Assembly (NCBI GenBank): GCA_002714565.1
Contig: PAXU01000006.1
Span: 171,529 to 188,438, forward strand
Direction: 5' to 3'
Source: Rhodopirellula sp.
GTDB taxonomy: Bacteria; Planctomycetota; Planctomycetia; Pirellulales; Pirellulaceae
Length of the DNA stretch: 16,910 nt
Positions within the stretch are counted from its first letter, which is position 1, and every line of letters begins with the position of its first letter. Of this stretch, positions 8,275 through 16,910 are shown one piece after another. The notes below the pieces were generated by a model. The model saw only the letters and a program-made list of their open reading frames with translations. It did not search any database and was not told the origin of the DNA. The translations under genes were made by a program, and so were the position numbers.

Positions 8275-9624
8275 GTGAATCGAACTCATAGCATCGTGCG
8301 TGGATTGGATCTTCCGATCACCAATCCACCAAAACAAACCGTTTCGGACGGACCGGATGTAATGCAGGCTGCGCTATTGGGTGATGACTATGTTGGCATG
8401 AAGCCAACGATGCTAGTGCAGGTTGGAGATCGTGTAAAACGAGGTCAACCGGTAATCCAAGACAAGAAGAACCCTGGTGTTATTCTCACATCGCCCGTTT
8501 CGGGAACCGTCAATGCGATTCATCGCGGTGAGAAACGACGTTTTCTCTCCATGGTGTTCGATGTCGAAGGTGACGAGTCCGTTGAGTTTGAAGCATCCGG
8601 CGATGATCTTCACAAACTCACCCCGGAAACTGTCCGTCGCCAGTTAATCAACTCCGGGTTGTGGACTGCCTTGCGTACACGTCCTTACAGCAAAACTCCG
8701 GCTGTAGACTCCACTCCTGACTCGATCTTTGTAACAGCGATCGATACCAATCCACTTGCGGCCAATCCAGAAGTTGTTGTCGCCCAGAATCACGAAAAGT
8801 TTGTGCTTGGACTACATGCCCTTAGCACGCTGACCAAGAACAATGTTTACCTTTGTCTCGCACCGAATGGTGACATCCGCGGTGACGAGGTGCCAAACGT
8901 ACAAACTGAGGTCTTTGACGGACCGCACCCGGCAGGCCTTGTTGGTACGCATATCAACATGGTGAATCCAGTTGGGCCAACGAAAACCCATTGGCATATT
9001 AATTACCAGGATGTTATCGCCATCGGCACATTGTTTTTCGACGGCACGCTGGACGCAAGTCGCATCATCGCACTTGCCGGTCCGGGGGTCGAAGATCCGC
9101 GACTTATCAAAACGGTTATTGGCGCAAACCTTGATCAGCTAACAACTGGACAACTGAACGAAGGTGAAAACAGGGTGATTTCCGGCTCGATTCTTTCAGG
9201 GCGACAATCTCAGGAACCCGTGTCCTTTTTAGGTCGATTCCACCTTCAGGTATCGGTAATAAGGGAAGGCGACGAGCGAGAGTTTCTTGGATGGATGGCA
9301 CCCGGTCTGAAGAAGTTCTCGATAACCAGAGCCTTCGCCTCTGCGATGAATCCGGCCCAACGCGTTGCGTTTACAACGGCCGCAGGTGGTAGCCGACGAT
9401 CGATGGTACCGATTGGAACCTACGAACGGGTCATGCCTTTAGATATTTTGCCGACCCAGCTGCTGCGAGCGCTAATCGTAGGTGATACCGATACAGCGCA
9501 ACAACTCGGGGCACTTGAATTAGATGAAGAAGATCTAGCTTTATGTACATTTGTCTGCCCGGGCAAGTATGAATATGGCTCCATGTTGAGACAGAACCTA
9601 ACACAAATAGAAGTTGAAGGATGA
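8275..9624 (+). CDS. nqrA: Na+-translocating NADH:quinone oxidoreductase subunit A, 449 aa
   Basis: NqrA is the peripheral cytoplasmic subunit of the sodium-pumping NADH:quinone oxidoreductase. The family landmarks are visible: GLDLPI at 10-15, a lipoyl-like beta region around 48-82 ([10 protein letters not shown], then [11 protein letters not shown]), TRPYSKTP at 135-142, [10 protein letters not shown] at 218-227, and the C-terminal [12 protein letters not shown] motif near 424-435. The length is close to that of characterised NqrA (about 446). It begins with GTG; the conserved GLDLPI strand is nine codons downstream, which agrees with family starts. No Shine-Dalgarno sequence is evident. 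It is the first gene of an eight-gene cluster whose order nqrA-F, apbE, nqrM is the usual one. The preceding 549 bases hold the likely promoter and operator. Confidence 0.96.
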
Positions 9625-9676
9625 TACGGCCGCTTGGCTTTAGATCATACGTCCATCAGAAACACCGGAAGAAACG

Positions 9677-10909
9677 ATGAGGAAATTCCTCGACAAACTA
9701 GCCCCCAGATTTGAAAAAGACGGGAAGCTTGAGAAGTTCTATCCTCTCTACGAGGCGATGGACACGTTTCTCTATACCCCGGGGGAAGTGACAACCGGGC
9801 CATCTCACGTGCGTGACAGCATCGATCTCAAACGTATGATGTCGATGGTCGTAGTAGCACTGATTCCCTGTGTATTCATGGCGATGTACAACACGGGACT
9901 GCAGGCAAATTCAGCACTTGGCGACACAGCCGTTGAAGGATGGAGGGGTGGAATTCTCGAATTATTCGGGGGGGTCGACCGTGAATCGTTTATCTCCAAT
10001 CTGGTACATGGCTCCACCTACTTCCTACCTGTGTACATCGTATGTATGACAGTCGGTGGAATATGGGAAGTGATTTTTGCAATTGTCCGCAAACATGAAG
10101 TAAATGAAGGATTCCTTGTAACAGGATTACTCTTTCCACTCACACTGCCTCCAACGATCCCGCTATGGCAAGTAGCCGTTGGGATCAGCTTTGGCGTCGT
10201 CATTGGCAAGGAAGTTTTCGGTGGAACCGGCCGCAATTTCCTGAATCCCGCATTAACCGCACGTGCTTTTTTGTATTTTTCCCATCCCGGTCAAATCACA
10301 GGAGATAACAAGATTTGGAATGCTGCGGGCAGCACTGATGGTGTAAGTGGCGCTACGATTTTGACAGATCTCGCCAACCAGCCGGCGGAAAGTGCATCAG
10401 AATATCTAAATGCTCATTTGAATGTTTCTGACAGCTTCTTTGGATGGACAACAGGCTCTATGGGCGAAACATCCACTCTGGCCTGTCTTATTGGGGCGAT
10501 GATTTTAATCATGACCCGCATTGGTTCGCCAAAAATCATGGTGGCAACCTTGTTAGGCGGACTTGGTGCTAGCACTGTTCTCAATGGCATTGGAAGCGAG
10601 ACAAATCCGATGTTTGCCATGACTCCAATTCAACATTTGGTCACCGGCGGTTTTGCCTTTGGTCTCGTATTTATGGCGACGGATCCCGTTTCTGCTTCGA
10701 TGACCTCCGGCGGTAAATGGATCTACGGCATACTCATTGGCGTCGTAGCAATTCTCATCCGTGTTGTGAATCCCGCATATCCCGAGGGAATCATGCTTGC
10801 CATTTTGTTTGGCAATGTCTTCGCACCACTGATCGACTACTTCATTGTTAACCAAAACATCAAGAAGCGTACTGCTCGTTGGAATGCAGATGCAAAGGTG
10901 GGAGGTTAG
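9677..10909 (+). CDS. nqrB: Na+-translocating NADH:quinone oxidoreductase subunit B, 410 aa
   Basis: NqrB is the large membrane subunit that carries a covalent FMN and takes part in Na+ transfer and quinone reduction. The flavinylation motif is SGAT at 224-227, so Thr227 is the expected FMN acceptor. Conserved segments include [20 protein letters not shown], where the acidic residue of an early membrane helix has been linked to Na+ in Vibrio, and [20 protein letters not shown]. Hydrophobic segments lie at about 54-72, 114-135, 147-180, 264-300, 322-336, 346-364 and 371-391. A 50-residue cytoplasmic N-terminus precedes the first. The ATG has a weak GGAAGA four bases upstream (9667-9672). It follows nqrA by 52 bases and precedes nqrC by three. 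Confidence 0.96.
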
Positions 10910-10912
10910 GCC

Positions 10913-11758
10913 ATGTCACGAGACTCACTCAAGAATACTTTTCTCGTCGCTGGAATCCTATGCGTCGTGTGTTCATTACTGGTATCGAGTACCTATGTCG
11001 GATTGAAAGACCGTCAGGAAGAAAATAAGCAACGAGACAAGAAACTAAATATCCTCGAAGCGTGCGGATTAGATAAAGAGACAACGGACATTGATCACGT
11101 TTATGCAAACAACGTTTCGGCCAGATTAGTTGATTTGGATTCCGGTCAGTACATCGACCATTGGCAAGAGGGCTCCGGGGCTGATGATTACGACCTCGAT
11201 GAGCTTTTCGAAGACGAATCGCGATACATCGAGTTAACTCGTCAGGAGGACCTACCTGGTATCGAAAAGAGAGAGAATATTGTGGCGGTCTATATCTATA
11301 CAGAAGGCGACAGTCAACGGATTGTGCTGCCAGTACGTGGAAAAGGACTTTGGTCAACACTTTGGGGCTTTGTCGCGGTCGATTCAACCGGCAGCATGAT
11401 AAATGGAATCACTTTTTACGAGCACGGTGAAACACCAGGGCTTGGCGGTGAAGTCGATAACGTCAACTGGAAAGAACTGTGGAAATCCGGCAAACAAATC
11501 TACGACGATGATGGCAGCGTAAAGGTAAAGGTCCTGAAGAAAGGTACTCCCCAAACGGATGTCAATTCGCAGGTTGACGGGTTGGCTGGGGCGACGATTA
11601 CCACAAATGGCGTATCCAAACTGCTTGAGTTTTGGCTCGGTGATCTCGGTTTTAAGAAATTCCTGACCAATAAACCGTGGCTGGAAAACGGCGATCAGCG
11701 GAATCCACAATCGGTCGCTGCACAAGACATAGACACATCACACGACGGAGAGAAATAG
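10913..11758 (+). CDS. nqrC: Na+-translocating NADH:quinone oxidoreductase subunit C, 281 aa
   Basis: NqrC has one N-terminal membrane helix (about 9-31) and an extracytoplasmic FMN-binding domain, with FMN linked by phosphoester to a threonine. The domain shows LPVRGKGLWSTLWGFVAV at 139-156 and HGETPGLGGEV at 171-181, both family landmarks. The attachment motif reads DGLAGAT at 222-228, so Thr228 should be the acceptor. The position that is normally Ser or Thr before GAT is Ala225, which differs from the NqrB motif of the same cluster. A 50-residue acidic stretch (about 80-120) sits between helix and core. The start is well supported by GGGAGG at 10900-10905, inside the end of nqrB, seven bases from the ATG. 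Overall length is slightly above that of Vibrio NqrC. Confidence 0.95.
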   Translation: MSRDSLKNTFLVAGILCVVCSLLVSSTYVGLKDRQEENKQRDKKLNILEACGLDKETTDIDHVYANNVSARLVDLDSGQYIDHWQEGSGADDYDLDELFEDESRYIELTRQEDLPGIEKRENIVAVYIYTEGDSQRIVLPVRGKGLWSTLWGFVAVDSTGSMINGITFYEHGETPGLGGEVDNVNWKELWKSGKQIYDDDGSVKVKVLKKGTPQTDVNSQVDGLAGATITTNGVSKLLEFWLGDLGFKKFLTNKPWLENGDQRNPQSVAAQDIDTSHDGEK

Positions 11759-11761
11759 AAA

Positions 11762-12388
11762 ATGGCTCAAGCTAAAGCCAAAGATGTTCTGTTCGATCCG
11801 GTATTGAACAATAACCCGATCGCATTGCAGATACTTGGTATCTGTTCAGCACTTGCCGTGACCACCAAACTCGACACGTCGGTAACGATGTGTCTGGCTG
11901 TGATCTTCGTCGTTGCATTTTCCAATGCCGCCGTCAGCCTTATACGAACTGTTATTCCCAGCAGTATTCGGATTATCGTCCAGATGACAATCATTGCATC
12001 ACTTGTGATCATTGTTGACCAGTTCCTCAAAGCATTTGCGTTTGAAGTCAGCAAACAGCTCTCTGTGTTCGTCGGATTAATCATAACCAACTGTATTGTC
12101 ATGGGGCGTGCCGAAGGCTACGCCATGAAGAATTCAGTGAAATCCAGTTTTCTTGACGGTATTGGAAACGGACTGGGTTATAGCTTCATTCTGTTAAGTG
12201 TTGGCTTTTTCCGTGAACTACTGGGATCCGGAAAACTATATGGTCACACAGTTTTTGAACTAACAACCGATGGTGGTTGGTATCCGTCCAATGGATTGAT
12301 GTTATTGGCACCAAGTGCCTTCTTCTTAATTGGCCTGATGATTTGGGTAATCCGTTCGTTTAAGCCTGATCAGATTGAGGAGGCATAG
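11762..12388 (+). CDS. nqrD: Na+-translocating NADH:quinone oxidoreductase subunit D, 208 aa
   Basis: NqrD is an integral membrane subunit homologous to NqrE and RnfE/RnfA. Six hydrophobic segments are visible (about 17-35, 41-62, 70-90, 100-118, 136-152, 178-199). The cysteines that help hold the intramembrane iron centre between NqrD and NqrE are present: Cys28 in [11 protein letters not shown] and Cys111 in [11 protein letters not shown], in the places known from Vibrio cholerae. The segment [11 protein letters not shown] is a further family mark. The ATG is three bases after the nqrC stop, with GGAGAG at 11747-11752 as a ribosome site. The tight spacing shows translation in one operon. 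NqrM, encoded downstream, is needed to mature this metal site in studied bacteria. Confidence 0.95.
12377..12383 (+). promoter_or_regulatory. Strong Shine-Dalgarno GAGGAGG deciding the GTG start of nqrE
   Basis: GAGGAGG lies within the last codons of nqrD, eight bases before GTG at 12392. It is the strongest ribosome site in the operon, and it fixes GTG, rather than any later ATG, as the nqrE start. Confidence 0.85.
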
Positions 12389-12391
12389 AAA

Positions 12392-13000
12392 GTGGAACAT
12401 TACCTAAACATATTCATTAAGGCAGTGTTCATTGAGAACCTCGCACTTTCGCTATTCCTGGGAATGTGTACATTCCTGGCGGTATCGAAAGATGTGAAGA
12501 CGGCCCTGGGGTTGGGCGTGGCAGTCATTGTCATTCAATCCATCACCATTCCAGCCAACAATCTCATATACACCTATCTGCTCAAGGAGAGTGCCTTAAG
12601 TTGGTTAGGCGTCTCTGATTCCAATCTGGAGTTTCTAGGGTTGATCAGCTACATCGGCGTGATTGCCGCGATGGTTCAGATTCTGGAAATGACGTTGGAT
12701 CGATTTTTCCCGCCGCTATACAACGCACTGGGAATCTTCTTACCGCTGATCACTGTGAACTGCGCTATCCTTGGCGGATCACTACTGATGGTTGAACGAA
12801 ACTACGACTTTGCTGAAAGCGTCGTCTTTGGGGTAGGGTCCGGTTTTGGTTGGGCATTAGCAATCGCGGCCTTGGCAGGTATACGCGAAAAAATGAAATA
12901 CAGTGATGTGCCCCACGGGCTGCGTGGGTTGGGCATCACATTTATCGTTGTTGGGTTAATGGCCATGGCATTCATGTCGTTCGCCGGTATCGAGCTGTAA
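12392..13000 (+). CDS. nqrE: Na+-translocating NADH:quinone oxidoreductase subunit E, 202 aa
   Basis: NqrE is the partner of NqrD in the membrane; the two form an inverted pseudo-symmetric pair around an iron centre. The relevant cysteines are Cys26 in [11 protein letters not shown] and Cys124 in [13 protein letters not shown]. Six hydrophobic segments are apparent (about 10-30, 37-57, 82-103, 113-133, 143-164, 178-200), and the length equals the family norm of about 198-202. GTG is the start, supported by a strong ribosome site in the end of nqrD. The N-terminal [20 protein letters not shown] matches the expected beginning of the family. The gene follows nqrD by three bases and precedes nqrF by 33. 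Confidence 0.95.
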
Positions 13001-13033
13001 GATCGGACCTTCATTCAGAGAATCAGATAATCC

Positions 13034-14254
13034 ATGGATACGATCATACTCGGCGTCATAATGTTCACCGTGATTGTGCTGGCGCTTGTCGGCATAATTC
13101 TGGTTGCCAAGAGTAAGCTGGTTGCTAGTGGTCCGGTGAAAATCATGATTAACGGTCAGAAAGAACTGACCGTCCAGGCTGGAGGCAAACTACTTTCGAG
13201 CCTCGCCGATAACAACATCTTCGTATCATCAGCTTGCGGTGGTGGTGGTACATGTGCTCAATGCGAAGTGAAAGTGCTTCGCGGCGGTGGAGACATCCTT
13301 CCGACAGAACAATCCCATATCAGCAAGCGAGAAGCCGCTGAGGGATGTCGTTTGAGTTGTCAGGTAGCCGTCAAACAGGATATGGATATTGAGGTTCCAC
13401 CTGAGGTATTTGAAACTAAGAAGTGGAAATGCAAAGTACGATCGAATCGTAACGTTGCCACCTTCATCAAAGAACTCGTACTCGAATTGCCACCGGGAGA
13501 AGATGTTGGGTTTAAACCTGGTGGTTACATTCAAATTGAAGTGCCTCCACACGAGCTCGAATACAAGACATTTGATATTGAAGAGGAATATCACGAAGAT
13601 TGGGACAAGTTTGATTTGTGGCGATTCCGCAGCGTTGTCGATGATACTACGATACGTGCCTACTCCATGGCAAACTATCCGGGCGAAACCGGGATAATCA
13701 TGCTTAATGTGAGAGTCGCATCGCCACCACCAAGGCAACCGGAATTGGCTCCTGGAAAGGTATCGTCGTACATTTTCGATCTGAAGCCGGGAGACGATGT
13801 GACGATCTCCGGCCCGTACGGAGAGTTCTTCATCAAAGAGTCCGATTCCGAAATGATCTACATCGGAGGTGGTGCTGGTATGGCACCCCTACGTAGCCAT
13901 ATTTATGAGCTTTTCAAGGAACGTAAGACTAACAGAAAGGTCTCATATTGGTACGGTGGTCGAAGCCTTCGCGAATTGTTCTACATGGATGAATTTAATA
14001 CGCTCGAAAATGAATTCGACAATTTCAAAATGAATATCGCGTTATCTGACGCGTTACCAGAAGATAACTGGACGGGATATACAGGATTTATTCATCAAGT
14101 ACTTCTGGATGAATACCTTGCAAACCATCCAGCACCTGAAGACATTGAATACTACATTTGCGGCCCACCGATGATGTTGCAGGCTGTACGAACGATGCTC
14201 GACGACCTTGGCGTTGAACCTGAAAACGTGGCCTTCGATGACTTCGGTGGTTAG
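13034..14254 (+). CDS. nqrF: Na+-translocating NADH:quinone oxidoreductase subunit F, 406 aa (NADH input)
   Basis: NqrF oxidises NADH and feeds electrons into the complex. In order it shows one N-terminal membrane anchor (about 5-25), a ferredoxin-like domain whose 2Fe-2S ligands are Cys68, Cys74 and Cys77 ([11 protein letters not shown]) and Cys109 (RLSC), a FAD-binding motif RAYSMANYP at 208-216, and an NAD(P)H-binding domain with [12 protein letters not shown] at 278-289 and CGPPMM at 376-381. It ends in FDDFGG, the conserved C-terminus of the family. Length (406) agrees with Vibrio cholerae NqrF (408). All expected residues are present, so the protein should be functional. There is no clear ribosome site. 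apbE begins 35 bases downstream. Confidence 0.97.
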
Positions 14255-14289
14255 TGTCCACGGCCATTTTACGTCCATCTCGGTTAATC

Positions 14290-15333
14290 ATGACCAGGCT
14301 GTTCATCTTCCTAATTCTGAGCTGTGCACTCGGATGCACCGAGACGTCTGACTCTCCGTCTGAAGCACCACCGGCACATGTTGTTTCCGGCGAAACAATG
14401 GGAACCACCTATACGATTCGTCTAACGGATCTAACTGGTGGTGAGACCCTTGAGTCGATTCAAGTCGCCGTGGATAAAGAACTGGCCACTGTTAATCAAC
14501 AGATGTCCACCTATATCGACGACTCCGAATTGTCGCGATTCAATACCTCCGCATCTGGGGACTGGTTTCCTGTTTCCCCTGAAGTCGTCGAGGTTGTAAA
14601 GCTAGCTCTATCCATTAGTGAAAAGACAAACGGAAAATACGATGTGACAGTCGGGCCACTTGTTAACCTGTGGAACTTCGGCCCAAATCCCATGCTTCAG
14701 GAGATTCCAACCGATGACGAAATCAATGCGGCTCTGTCTCGTGTCGGCTTTGAACATCTAAGCACCCGCGAAAATCCTCCTGCGTTGAAGAAGAGTAAAC
14801 CCGATCTATATGTGGATCTTTCATCAATTGCGAAGGGGCACGGTGTTGACCGAATCGCATCAATTCTCGATGCGATGAACATACCCGGCTACATGATTGA
14901 AATCGGCGGCGAAGTACGTACAAGAGGCTCGAAGGCAGATGGCAAGTTCTGGAGAATTGGTGTGGAGAACCCCGCGTCAAAACCCGGTGATATTATCTCT
15001 ATCGTTCCACTTGAAAACCAAGCTCTCGCGAGCTCTGGTGATTATCGAAATTTCTTCGAGGTGGATGGCGTAAGGTATACGCATACGATTGATCCGACCA
15101 CAGGGCGACCAATTGTCCACGATACAACCGCTGTCAGTGTAATAGCAGATACATGTGCTGAAGCGGATGCATGGGCCACCGCAATTCTAGTGCTTGGTGC
15201 AAACTACACAGATACTTTGAGTAGTGATCAGAACCTAGGTGTACTGTTAATAAATCGTGTGGATAATGGACTAGTACTGGAACCCAACACTCGATTCACT
15301 GCGAGTCAGAGTAGGTCTGACACCGCTGAATAA
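14290..15333 (+). CDS. apbE: FAD:protein FMN transferase ApbE (lipoprotein), 347 aa
   Basis: ApbE uses FAD and Mg2+ to attach FMN to a threonine of NqrB and NqrC on the outer side of the membrane. The N-terminus MTRLFIFLILSCALGC is a lipoprotein signal with Cys16 as the likely lipid anchor. Family motifs are present: ETMGTTYTIR at 35-44, MSTYIDDSELSRFN at 72-85, DLSSIAKGHGVDRI at 176-189, EIGGEVRTRG at 204-213, SGDYRNFF at 249-256, THTIDPTTGRPI at 264-275 and CAEADAWATAILVLG at 289-303. The frame is open from a GTG at 14254, but I chose the ATG at 14290 because it places the signal peptide at the protein start. Its position directly after nqrF agrees with its job in making the complex. Confidence 0.94.
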   Translation: MTRLFIFLILSCALGCTETSDSPSEAPPAHVVSGETMGTTYTIRLTDLTGGETLESIQVAVDKELATVNQQMSTYIDDSELSRFNTSASGDWFPVSPEVVEVVKLALSISEKTNGKYDVTVGPLVNLWNFGPNPMLQEIPTDDEINAALSRVGFEHLSTRENPPALKKSKPDLYVDLSSIAKGHGVDRIASILDAMNIPGYMIEIGGEVRTRGSKADGKFWRIGVENPASKPGDIISIVPLENQALASSGDYRNFFEVDGVRYTHTIDPTTGRPIVHDTTAVSVIADTCAEADAWATAILVLGANYTDTLSSDQNLGVLLINRVDNGLVLEPNTRFTASQSRSDTAE

Positions 15334-15339
15334 AATCTT

Positions 15340-15603
15340 ATGCTTCGAATTTTTATACTCTCGATCGTTGTCTTTGCTGTCGCCATGATTGCGATGGCTG
15401 TTGGTGTCATTATCAGCAATCGACGAATTCAAGGTAGTTGTGGTGGTTTATCAAATCTAAAGGACACCGATGGCAATCCCTATTGTTCTCTTTGTTCGAT
15501 CCCGGCAAGTGAATGTCCGGATCTGTTAGCCAACAAAGACAACGATAGTCCATGTGATTCCTTCGACGCCGCTGTCGAACCGGTCTCACCAAACGCTAAA
15601 TAG
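15340..15603 (+). CDS. nqrM: Na+-NQR maturation protein NqrM, 87 aa
   Basis: NqrM is a small one-helix membrane protein required for assembly of active NQR, thought to deliver iron to the NqrD/NqrE cysteine site. The sequence has one membrane helix (about 4-26), followed by RRIQGSCGGL, which matches the conserved GSCGGL element (Cys34), then Cys49, Cys52 and Cys59 in a CSLC plus SEC arrangement, and Cys72. The C-terminal 15 residues are unconserved. In studied NqrM the cysteine of the GSCGG element is essential. The gene starts six bases after the apbE stop without a Shine-Dalgarno sequence and is probably translationally coupled. It appears to be the last gene of the nqr operon. Confidence 0.92.
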   Translation: MLRIFILSIVVFAVAMIAMAVGVIISNRRIQGSCGGLSNLKDTDGNPYCSLCSIPASECPDLLANKDNDSPCDSFDAAVEPVSPNAK

Positions 15604-15718
15604 ACCGGCAACACTCTCAGTGTAGACCTGGAATCATCTGCGACCTCGCTGTTGTAAACAACTGATGCAATCTAAACATCGAATGCTGCCGGTCAGTTGT
15701 TAGTCTAAATCATGCCTA

Positions 15719-15734
15719 TGACAGGTTACTGTCA
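15719..15734. promoter_or_regulatory. Palindrome TGACAG-N4-CTGTCA
   Basis: Perfect 6-base arms flank GTTA. Its centre lies about 22 bases (roughly two helical turns) from the centre of the next palindrome, an arrangement common for paired operators. It lies about 50 bases upstream of the TATAAT box. Confidence 0.4.
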
Positions 15735-15741
15735 CCGAGTG

Positions 15742-15756
15742 TTGGCACTATGCCAA
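15742..15756. promoter_or_regulatory. Palindrome TTGGCA-N3-TGCCAA overlapping a likely -35 region
   Basis: Perfect 6-base arms flank CTA. With a start site near 15782 expected from the TATAAT box, the palindrome covers about -40 to -26, where a bound protein would touch RNA polymerase. TTGGCA also resembles a -35 box, but its 22-base distance to TATAAT is too long for standard use. Confidence 0.45.
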
Positions 15757-15832: not shown

Positions 15833-16910
15833 ATGCCGCGACCGCGATCAAGCACATCGAATCTCGTGAGACTTCTAAACCAGTCAAGCGGCCCGATATA
15901 CGCACTCAATGAAAAGCGCAAGGTGATATTCTGCAACGAGGCCTGCGCAACGTGGTTGAAACTAGATGTGGATGATATCGTCGGAAAAGTGCTTGAATAT
16001 CACAGCCGTGAATTAGATGAATCCATTCTGGAAATACTTTCCGGACTTTGCCCGCCGCCGAGAGTTTTCAGCGGAATTGAAAGTCAGTCCATCGTGGTCG
16101 CAAAGTACCCCGATGCAATATGGTCACGTCGCAAGGCAAGATTTCTCCCGCTTGAACAAGATGGAGGCTTCGTTGGAATCATTGCCTACGTAGACGGTAA
16201 CGACCTACCAAGCGGTACCACCTCTCTAGAGGGTCCAACGAGCGAGTCACAACAGCTACATGATCTGATTATTGAACATCGCAAGTCTTTGGCTCGCCGG
16301 TTTCCCATGACAACCCTCGCCGGAAAGAGCGATTCCATCAAGCATATTCGGCAAAAGGTTTCATTGGCCCTCAAACAGCCAACAAACGTTGTCATTACTG
16401 GCCCCATTGGCATTGGTAAGCAGCATTTGGCCAGAACGATTCACTACAACCACACACCAAGTTTTTCAGGTGCACTGACACCGATTGCTTGTGAAATCAT
16501 CACGGATGAAATGTTAACTTCGATCATCACAGACTTCATCCAGGAATGTAGTAGAACTCAGTCTTTCGACTCATCGACTCTGTTGCTTTTGAATATCGAT
16601 AAGCTCCAGACACCGGAAGCAAGAATCCTAAATACGCTCTTACTGGAGGCTCCACAGCCGATCCTGACAATCTCAACAAGCTCTATTGGACTGAGCGAGC
16701 TCGTGGAATCGAAGAATTTCCCGGAAGCACTTGCCTCGCGATTAAGTACTTTGCCAATACATATTCCATCATTAGCAGATCGCCCGGAAGATATCCCTGC
16801 TTTGGCACAATTAATCTTGGAGTCAAAAAACGTTGGGCGTGATGAACAGGTAAGCGGTTTCACACCAGAAGCAATGGACATCCTAATTGACCATCCATGG
16901 CATGGAAACT
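15833..16910 (+). CDS. PAS plus AAA+ NtrC-type regulator homologue with degenerate ATPase motifs, partial (3' end outside window)
   Basis: The frame is open from ATG 15833 to the window end (359 residues so far); a TAA at 15788-15790 closes it upstream and no other start lies between. Residues about 8-120 look like a PAS domain (GPIYALNEKRKVIFCN, then a closing strand GGFVGIIAYVD). Residues about 160-359 align with the central domain of sigma-54 activators: LAGKSDSIKHIRQKV, a P-loop-like GPIGIGK at 190-196, LPIHIPSLADRPEDIPALA at 307-325, and SGFTPEAMDILIDHPWHGN at the edge, where YPWPGNVREL is expected. Key positions are changed: Gln197 replaces Ser/Thr after the P-loop Lys, Leu253-Asn254 replace the Walker B Asp-Glu, the GAFTGA loop is absent, and Pro297 replaces the first conserved Arg, while Arg303 is kept. 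A DNA-binding domain would lie beyond the window. It is probably a regulator that does not act as a sigma-54 activator. Confidence 0.78.
   Translation, partial: MPRPRSSTSNLVRLLNQSSGPIYALNEKRKVIFCNEACATWLKLDVDDIVGKVLEYHSRELDESILEILSGLCPPPRVFSGIESQSIVVAKYPDAIWSRRKARFLPLEQDGGFVGIIAYVDGNDLPSGTTSLEGPTSESQQLHDLIIEHRKSLARRFPMTTLAGKSDSIKHIRQKVSLALKQPTNVVITGPIGIGKQHLARTIHYNHTPSFSGALTPIACEIITDEMLTSIITDFIQECSRTQSFDSSTLLLLNIDKLQTPEARILNTLLLEAPQPILTISTSSIGLSELVESKNFPEALASRLSTLPIHIPSLADRPEDIPALAQLILESKNVGRDEQVSGFTPEAMDILIDHPWHGN

Follow-up and report, generated by a model that had tools for sequence, protein, structure and literature searches.

A planctomycete family of enhancer-binding-protein homologues without the motifs of sigma-54 activation, placed recurrently beside NADH:quinone oxidoreductase and mrp genes

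RESULTS

A degenerate enhancer-binding-protein gene downstream of nqr

Analysis of a 16,910-nucleotide stretch of DNA from Rhodopirellula sp. (G000:C6:171529-188438; here called the window) revealed a gene encoding a pseudo-enhancer-binding protein, here called the regulator, downstream of nqr and apbE genes. The 5' 78% of the gene occupies positions 15833 to 16910 of the forward strand, where the open frame is truncated by the window end; the rest was found at L002:7440-7750 by reading the contig beyond the window. The complete gene (L002:6362-7750) encodes 462 amino acids, including four X due to N bases. Single N bases are scattered over L002:7440-19001, and the first is the base immediately after the window end. 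The closest named relative (L003), with 92% identity over the full length, belongs to a Pirellulales metagenome genome of the same genus (isolate ALOHA_A2.0_43), and the label Pirellulales used below for loci rests on this record. A scan of genome contigs with a single query sequence matched two loci, one of them as a distant AAA+ match only.

Pfam matches above cut-off were obtained for Sigma54_activ_2 (residues 164 to 314), AAA_lid_14 (residues 316 to 395), and HTH_8/Fis (residues 410 to 450). By fold and homology (AAA+ domain of the Sigma54 type, lid, and Fis-type helix-turn-helix [HTH]), the regulator belongs to the bacterial enhancer-binding proteins. A preliminary description of the window, made from its letters alone, had proposed an NtrC-type layout with a PAS domain; the PAS-like domain (residues ~11 to 124; positions 15863 to 16204, forward strand) is matched by Pfam PAS models below their cut-offs only. 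A 16-row profile of the PAS region gave 3ewk as the top match in the Protein Data Bank (PDB) (7e-7), limited to profile positions 7 to 54. The window protein carries Cys34, Cys38, and Cys73, with Leu in place of the family Cys54; among the Pirellulales members, all four positions are Cys in 11 of 53 and the last three in 9 of 53. A cofactor was considered for this domain and none was assigned, the evidence being the Cys pattern only.

Loss of the motifs for ATP hydrolysis and sigma-54 contact

In enhancer-binding proteins, the L1 loop, which carries GAFTGA, is inserted in a helix of the AAA+ domain, and the pre-sensor-1 loop is called L2; the gamma-phosphate is sensed by the Walker B glutamate and contacted in trans by an arginine finger, and GAFTGA, the Walker B pair, and the pre-sensor-1 segment are central for activity (passages of PMC7175178). 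The genome of the window encodes RpoN and five strong PF00158 proteins, all five with the P-loop Lys-Glu, the Walker B Asp-Glu, two arginine fingers, and a GAFTGA-like motif. The motifs of the window protein were read from an alignment with these five canonical paralogs.

The degenerate AAA+ alpha/beta subdomain (residues 162 to 314; positions 16316 to 16774; this and all following features on the forward strand) was delimited by Pfam, by a fold match, and by the structure model of P0003, a database protein that shares 97% identity with the window protein (predicted local distance difference test score, 89). Its P-loop, GPIGIGKQ (residues 190 to 197; 16400 to 16423), retains Lys196, followed by Gln where the paralogs have Glu. 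Residues 225 to 242 (16505 to 16558) form a helix without the GAFTGA loop according to the alignment, the profile alignment, and the model. In the Walker B strand, LLLLN (residues 250 to 254; 16580 to 16594), Leu-Asn replaces Asp-Glu. The arginine-finger stretch, PEALASR (residues 297 to 303; 16721 to 16741), has Pro in place of the first Arg and retains the second (R303). The sensor-2 Arg is Ser. The L1-bearing segment (H204 to L252) comprises 49 residues and the pre-sensor-1 segment 17, compared with 57 and 28, respectively, in six of six canonical proteins. Among the features of a sigma-54 activator, the Walker A Lys is thus present, and GAFTGA, the Walker B Asp-Glu, and the full arginine-finger pair are absent; the combination of a lost GAFTGA and a retained HTH is that of GAFTGA-less regulators acting with sigma-70.

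Profile-profile alignment (100% probability, E = 9e-61) placed Leu253-Asn254 at the Walker B pair. The P0003 model has an AAA+ fold in which strand 249 to 253 terminates at the Walker B position, and a single unbroken helix (residues 225 to 242) occupies the expected L1 insertion site. Neither analysis supported a shifted Walker B register, and neither located an acidic Walker B pair or GAFTGA elsewhere in the domain, the check that the preliminary description had proposed. Its four substitutions (no GAFTGA, Leu-Asn at Walker B, Gln after the P-loop Lys, and Pro at the first finger) were all recovered on the alignment. It had not named the retained second finger (R303), the shortened L1-bearing and pre-sensor-1 segments, or the sensor-2 Ser.

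A family spread through the class Planctomycetia

With the window protein as query, 48 of 60 genomes (its own and 59 relatives) gave a match at E<=1e-30, one copy each, and 47 of the 48 matches were without internal stop. Three more (G011, G013, and G025) emerged from a profile search combined with motif reading, which brings the regulator to 51 of 60 genomes. In Planctomycetia, the class containing the Pirellulales, the search at E<=1e-70 hit 117 of 198 genomes, again with one match each; most of these matches span nearly the whole model, some span part of it, and a few have in-frame stops inside the match. The phylum search gave matches in 46 of 294 genomes at E<=1e-60. Outside the class, no match starts before position 125 of the profile, the pattern expected of canonical proteins, except that of G224, which starts at position 61; this match (L149), the only one outside the class that was read for motifs, carries GAFTDA.

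Eighty-two members were aligned, comprising 53 Pirellulales, 17 members of f21, 9 of f111, and 3 of f112. Motif counts refer to these 82 rows without L003, and segment lengths to 83 rows with L003; L176, a duplicate of the window gene, was excluded, and the fragment L135 was scored as lacking the N-terminal motifs. A GAFTGA-like motif was present in none of the 82 members, the Walker B pair was missing in 81, and Lys plus Asp-Glu was retained in one. The pre-sensor-1 segment measures 14 to 22 residues and is shorter than the canonical 28 in 83 of 83 rows; the L1-bearing segment is below the canonical 57 in 76 of 83. The substitutions thus recur in homologues, a point on which the preliminary description had made its reading depend. 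The P-loop Lys is retained in 5 of 53 Pirellulales, 11 of 17 f21, 8 of 9 f111, and 3 of 3 f112 members. In the Pirellulales, 48 of 53 members have another residue in place of this Lys, all 53 lack the Walker B pair, and 38 lack the first finger. Positions of the lid and HTH are near-invariant. The member that retains both the P-loop Lys and the Walker B Asp-Glu without GAFTGA (L138, f21) is a possible evolutionary intermediate.

In a tree of 102 rows (L003, L135, and L079 excluded), one branch with a Shimodaira-Hasegawa-like approximate likelihood ratio test value of 100 separates 80 family rows from 22 canonical rows. Five of the 12 loci L098 to L109, for which forward frames were read, were placed in the tree as canonical rows. 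Between the two same-genus genomes, the ratio of nonsynonymous to synonymous substitution rates (dN/dS) is 0.19 for the regulator, compared with 0.016 for nqrF, 0.19 for apbE, 0.07 for nqrM, and 0.10 for mrp. Judged from these sequence comparisons, the regulator is a family under purifying selection that has been repurposed and is not decaying. Repurposing had already been suggested in the preliminary description, and the preserved fold, the dN/dS value, and the finding that no member read keeps all motifs speak for it.

Neighboring genes

Neighbors were scored from mechanical gene calls when a nuo or nqr/apbE gene ended within 1.2 kb upstream of the regulator, or when mrp started within 1.3 kb or a pseudo-receiver within 600 bases downstream. 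The Pirellulales set comprised 54 loci, the window and L003 included. In the window, nqrA-F, encoding the Na+-translocating NADH:quinone oxidoreductase (Na+-NQR; 8275 to 14254), and an apbE-family gene (14254 to 15333) were confirmed. An nqrM-like gene follows (15340 to 15603), with a PF04400 score of 21.6 bits against a cut-off of 22 and coverage of 18 of 43 profile positions. The upstream neighborhood noted in the preliminary description is therefore real, but it is not specific to nqr: 3 of 54 loci have nqrF or apbE upstream (the window, its sister L003, and L037; two genera), compared with 16 of 54 loci that have same-strand nuoN of complex I in this place. These 16 loci span eight family codes, with spacing from a 36-base overlap to a 530-base gap. 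Ten of the 16 nuoN genes were checked by Pfam and all carry Proton_antipo_M; two of three tested pass the NCBIfam NuoN cut-off, and the third is marginally below it. From these counts, the recurrent partner is NADH:quinone oxidoreductase in either form. Na+-NQR evolution is covered in PMC4014512 (passages). In passages of PMC12316311, on sigma-54 regulons with Planctomycetia included, nuo is not mentioned.

The commoner partners are situated downstream, beyond the window end. A small open reading frame (L002:7747-8118) overlaps the regulator stop codon; it encodes a divergent pseudo-receiver that matches no Pfam domain and forms a recurrent family in Pirellulales. It was found downstream of the regulator in 35 of 54 loci, and mrp, encoding an Mrp/NUBPL iron-sulfur (Fe-S) carrier, in 32 of 54. 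The Mrp proteins of L002 and L046 are NUBPL iron-transfer nucleoside triphosphatases according to Pfam, and NUBPL is described as a complex I assembly factor (PMC6196649).

The pseudo-receiver has a receiver fold. In the column aligned to the phosphoacceptor Asp of the NtrC receiver, 22 of 30 members have Glu and none has Asp, and none of the 30 matched Pfam Response_reg at E<=0.1 after HMMER's filters. Its top structural match is the TadZ receiver, which shares the receiver fold at 10% identity and lies within 1 Z of other receivers. The TadZ receiver is attached to a ParA-like ATPase. A pseudo-receiver is present in 43 of 51 genomes with the regulator and in none of the nine apparently without it. 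At E<=1e-5, its profile matches 51 of 60 genomes, including four of these nine (G008, G036, G044, and G057); the matches in the four were taken as ordinary receivers because several, among the part checked, lie in or beside frames of enhancer-binding proteins. Where the pseudo-receiver is not linked to the regulator (13 loci in 12 genomes), 11 of 13 loci adjoin mrp.

DISCUSSION

Proposed function of the regulator

On balance, we lean toward a regulator that is independent of sigma-54, probably does not hydrolyze ATP, is paired with a phosphorylation-dead receiver, and is connected with NADH:quinone oxidoreductase and the supply of Fe-S clusters. Homology, fold, motif loss, and the single family on the tree show descent from a canonical bacterial enhancer-binding protein, with an origin probably near the base of the class Planctomycetia. 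The strong conservation of the Fis-type HTH points to DNA binding through this element. The AAA+ domain would be kept as a platform for oligomerization and for ligands or partners and would no longer be a motor, with the often Cys-rich PAS domain as the likely input. Adjacency and co-occurrence suggest that the regulator works with the separate pseudo-receiver, which would probably act on the AAA+ domain in trans, much as the receivers of NtrC proteins do in cis. The recurrent gene order suggests that the output is most likely the adjustment of nuo or nqr and of mrp (Fe-S cluster supply), presumably from sigma-70-type promoters.

Sigma-70-type promoters are the most economical reading because known GAFTGA-less proteins regulate such promoters. 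NtrC of Rhodobacter capsulatus and Caulobacter carries an L1/GAFTGA deletion (eight residues in Caulobacter) and regulates sigma-70 promoters, and its own aspartyl phosphorylation site matters (passages of PMC10274813). The planctomycete regulator differs in its N-terminal PAS domain, in the separate pseudo-receiver nearby, and in the additional loss of Walker B, the pre-sensor-1 loop, and the first finger. In other lineages, TyrR, DhaR, HupR, VpsR, and YplP are enhancer-binding-protein paralogs with a defective GAFTGA; TyrR, DhaR, and HupR are sigma-70 dependent, and VpsR and YplP are probably not sigma-54 dependent (passages of PMC3162934, whose main text does not contain "planctomyc"). The comparison of the planctomycete regulator with these proteins covers GAFTGA.

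Several observations weigh against this interpretation. Nine of 60 relatives apparently lack the regulator, and the best match in each has a GAFTGA-like motif. This call is provisional, the motif having been read in the best match only, among the matches listed, and because G479, of the same genus as G036 (one of the nine), has a match. The L1-bearing segment is of canonical length or longer in 7 of 83 rows. The window protein and 22 of 29 members outside the Pirellulales retain the P-loop Lys, and they may therefore still bind ATP. The linkage is also uneven. The pseudo-receiver was found in just one of the 29 f21, f111, and f112 loci, and its dN/dS between the two same-genus genomes, calculated from very few changes, is 1.16. 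In these 29 loci, the Nuo, Nqr, ApbE, and Mrp queries detected no similar gene; all that was seen in five loci of one f21 genus (L137 to L141) is a divergent NuoN-like antiporter gene, shorter than nuoN and encoding 382 to 392 amino acids, which lies about 3.1 kb upstream of the regulator and is separated from it by other genes. Within the Pirellulales, 14 of 54 loci have none of the nuo, nqr, pseudo-receiver, and mrp neighbors, G009 and G018 have nqr at a site unlinked to the regulator, and the nuo/nqr/none label requires 15 changes on the tree. No operator dyad is shared, the best one occurring in 3 of 82 upstream stretches, the same as in shuffled sequences.

Alternative explanations

Two other explanations deserve attention, both of them doubtful. 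In the first, the neighborhood is a passive relic of an ancestral nuo-regulator-receiver-mrp cluster that was retained by chance, and the regulon lies elsewhere. The order is unseen outside the Pirellulales and disrupted in many of them, and the label changes and the unshared dyad fit chance retention. Chance accounts poorly, however, for nuo and nqr, unrelated enzymes with the same reaction, both occurring upstream, and for the co-occurrence of pseudo-receiver and regulator even when unlinked, with mrp beside most unlinked copies. The second, about as tentative, is a sigma-70 regulator switched by a nucleotide or second messenger, like FleQ or VpsR, whose pocket binds ATP, ADP, or cyclic di-GMP as a conformational signal. 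FleQ binds ATP-gamma-S (title of PDB entry 5exs), and nucleotide binding may persist in the window protein, in which Lys196 and R303 are retained. The Pirellulales substitutions at the P-loop, Walker B, and first finger argue the other way, since they indicate that the chemistry of the pocket is not under the usual constraint.

A more ambitious form of the favored sigma-54-independent reading, which we regard as improbable, joins the regulator, the pseudo-receiver, and the Mrp/NUBPL carrier in one sensing complex. FleN is a MinD-like ATPase. FleQ, an AAA+ enhancer-binding protein, forms a complex with FleN (PDB titles; PMC10723142), and mrp, whose product falls in the same broad class of ATPases as FleN, is known here as a gene neighbor of the regulator only. 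By this analogy, a MinD-like carrier might dock through the pseudo-receiver on the dead AAA+ ring, report Fe-S cluster or ATP status, and set the level of nuo or nqr; an enhancer-binding protein would then have become a sensor of Fe-S supply.

A gene decaying toward loss would fit the missing motifs, the nine relatives apparently without it, and the few class frames with in-frame stops, but is very improbable in view of the 47 of 48 open frames, the dN/dS of 0.19, the near-invariant HTH positions, and the wide presence in the class. It is equally hard to credit a sigma-54 activator that still remodels sigma-54 through a diverged loop: RpoN is encoded in the genome and the L1 segment keeps its canonical length in 7 rows, yet GAFTGA is absent from all 82 members, the Walker B pair from 81, and the pre-sensor-1 segment is short throughout.

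Loss of GAFTGA was already known, in scattered proteins. What appears new within the literature searched is a class-wide family that combines loss of GAFTGA, the pre-sensor-1 loop, and catalytic residues with a separate pseudo-receiver and recurrent placement beside nuo or nqr and mrp. The family was not described in that literature, covered by titles and the starts of abstracts; Studholme and Dixon (2004), which reportedly deals with Pirellula enhancer-binding proteins, could describe a member. If the favored reading is correct, an ATP-driven transcription machine was converted to a passive regulator, with possible intermediates visible in the members outside the Pirellulales that keep the Lys. 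In planctomycetes, the regulator would be a candidate for the control of either Na+-NQR or respiratory complex I, linked to NUBPL-type Fe-S delivery.

Further features of the locus and its relatives

Three inverted repeats are clustered at 15657 to 15756, in the interval that separates the nqrM-like gene from the regulator. Two perfect dyads in the forward strand are candidate operators only: TGACAG-N4-CTGTCA (15719 to 15734), unchanged in L003, and TTGGCA-N3-TGCCAA (15742 to 15756), with one mismatch in L003. Their conservation carries little weight because the surrounding stretch is 91% identical between the two same-genus genomes.

Eleven genomes were tested for both oxidoreductases. In G000, G001, G002, and G018, nqrA is accompanied by no more than weak, split 49-kDa matches, and in G009 it occurs without any 49-kDa match. 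Strong nuoD without nqrA was found in G016, G033, G046, G048, and G051, and neither gene in G024. The gene behind the weak split match (49-kDa, NuoD/hydrogenase-like), located at G000:C77:36562-37398, also occurs in 8 of the 10 other genomes, with or without a full nuoD.
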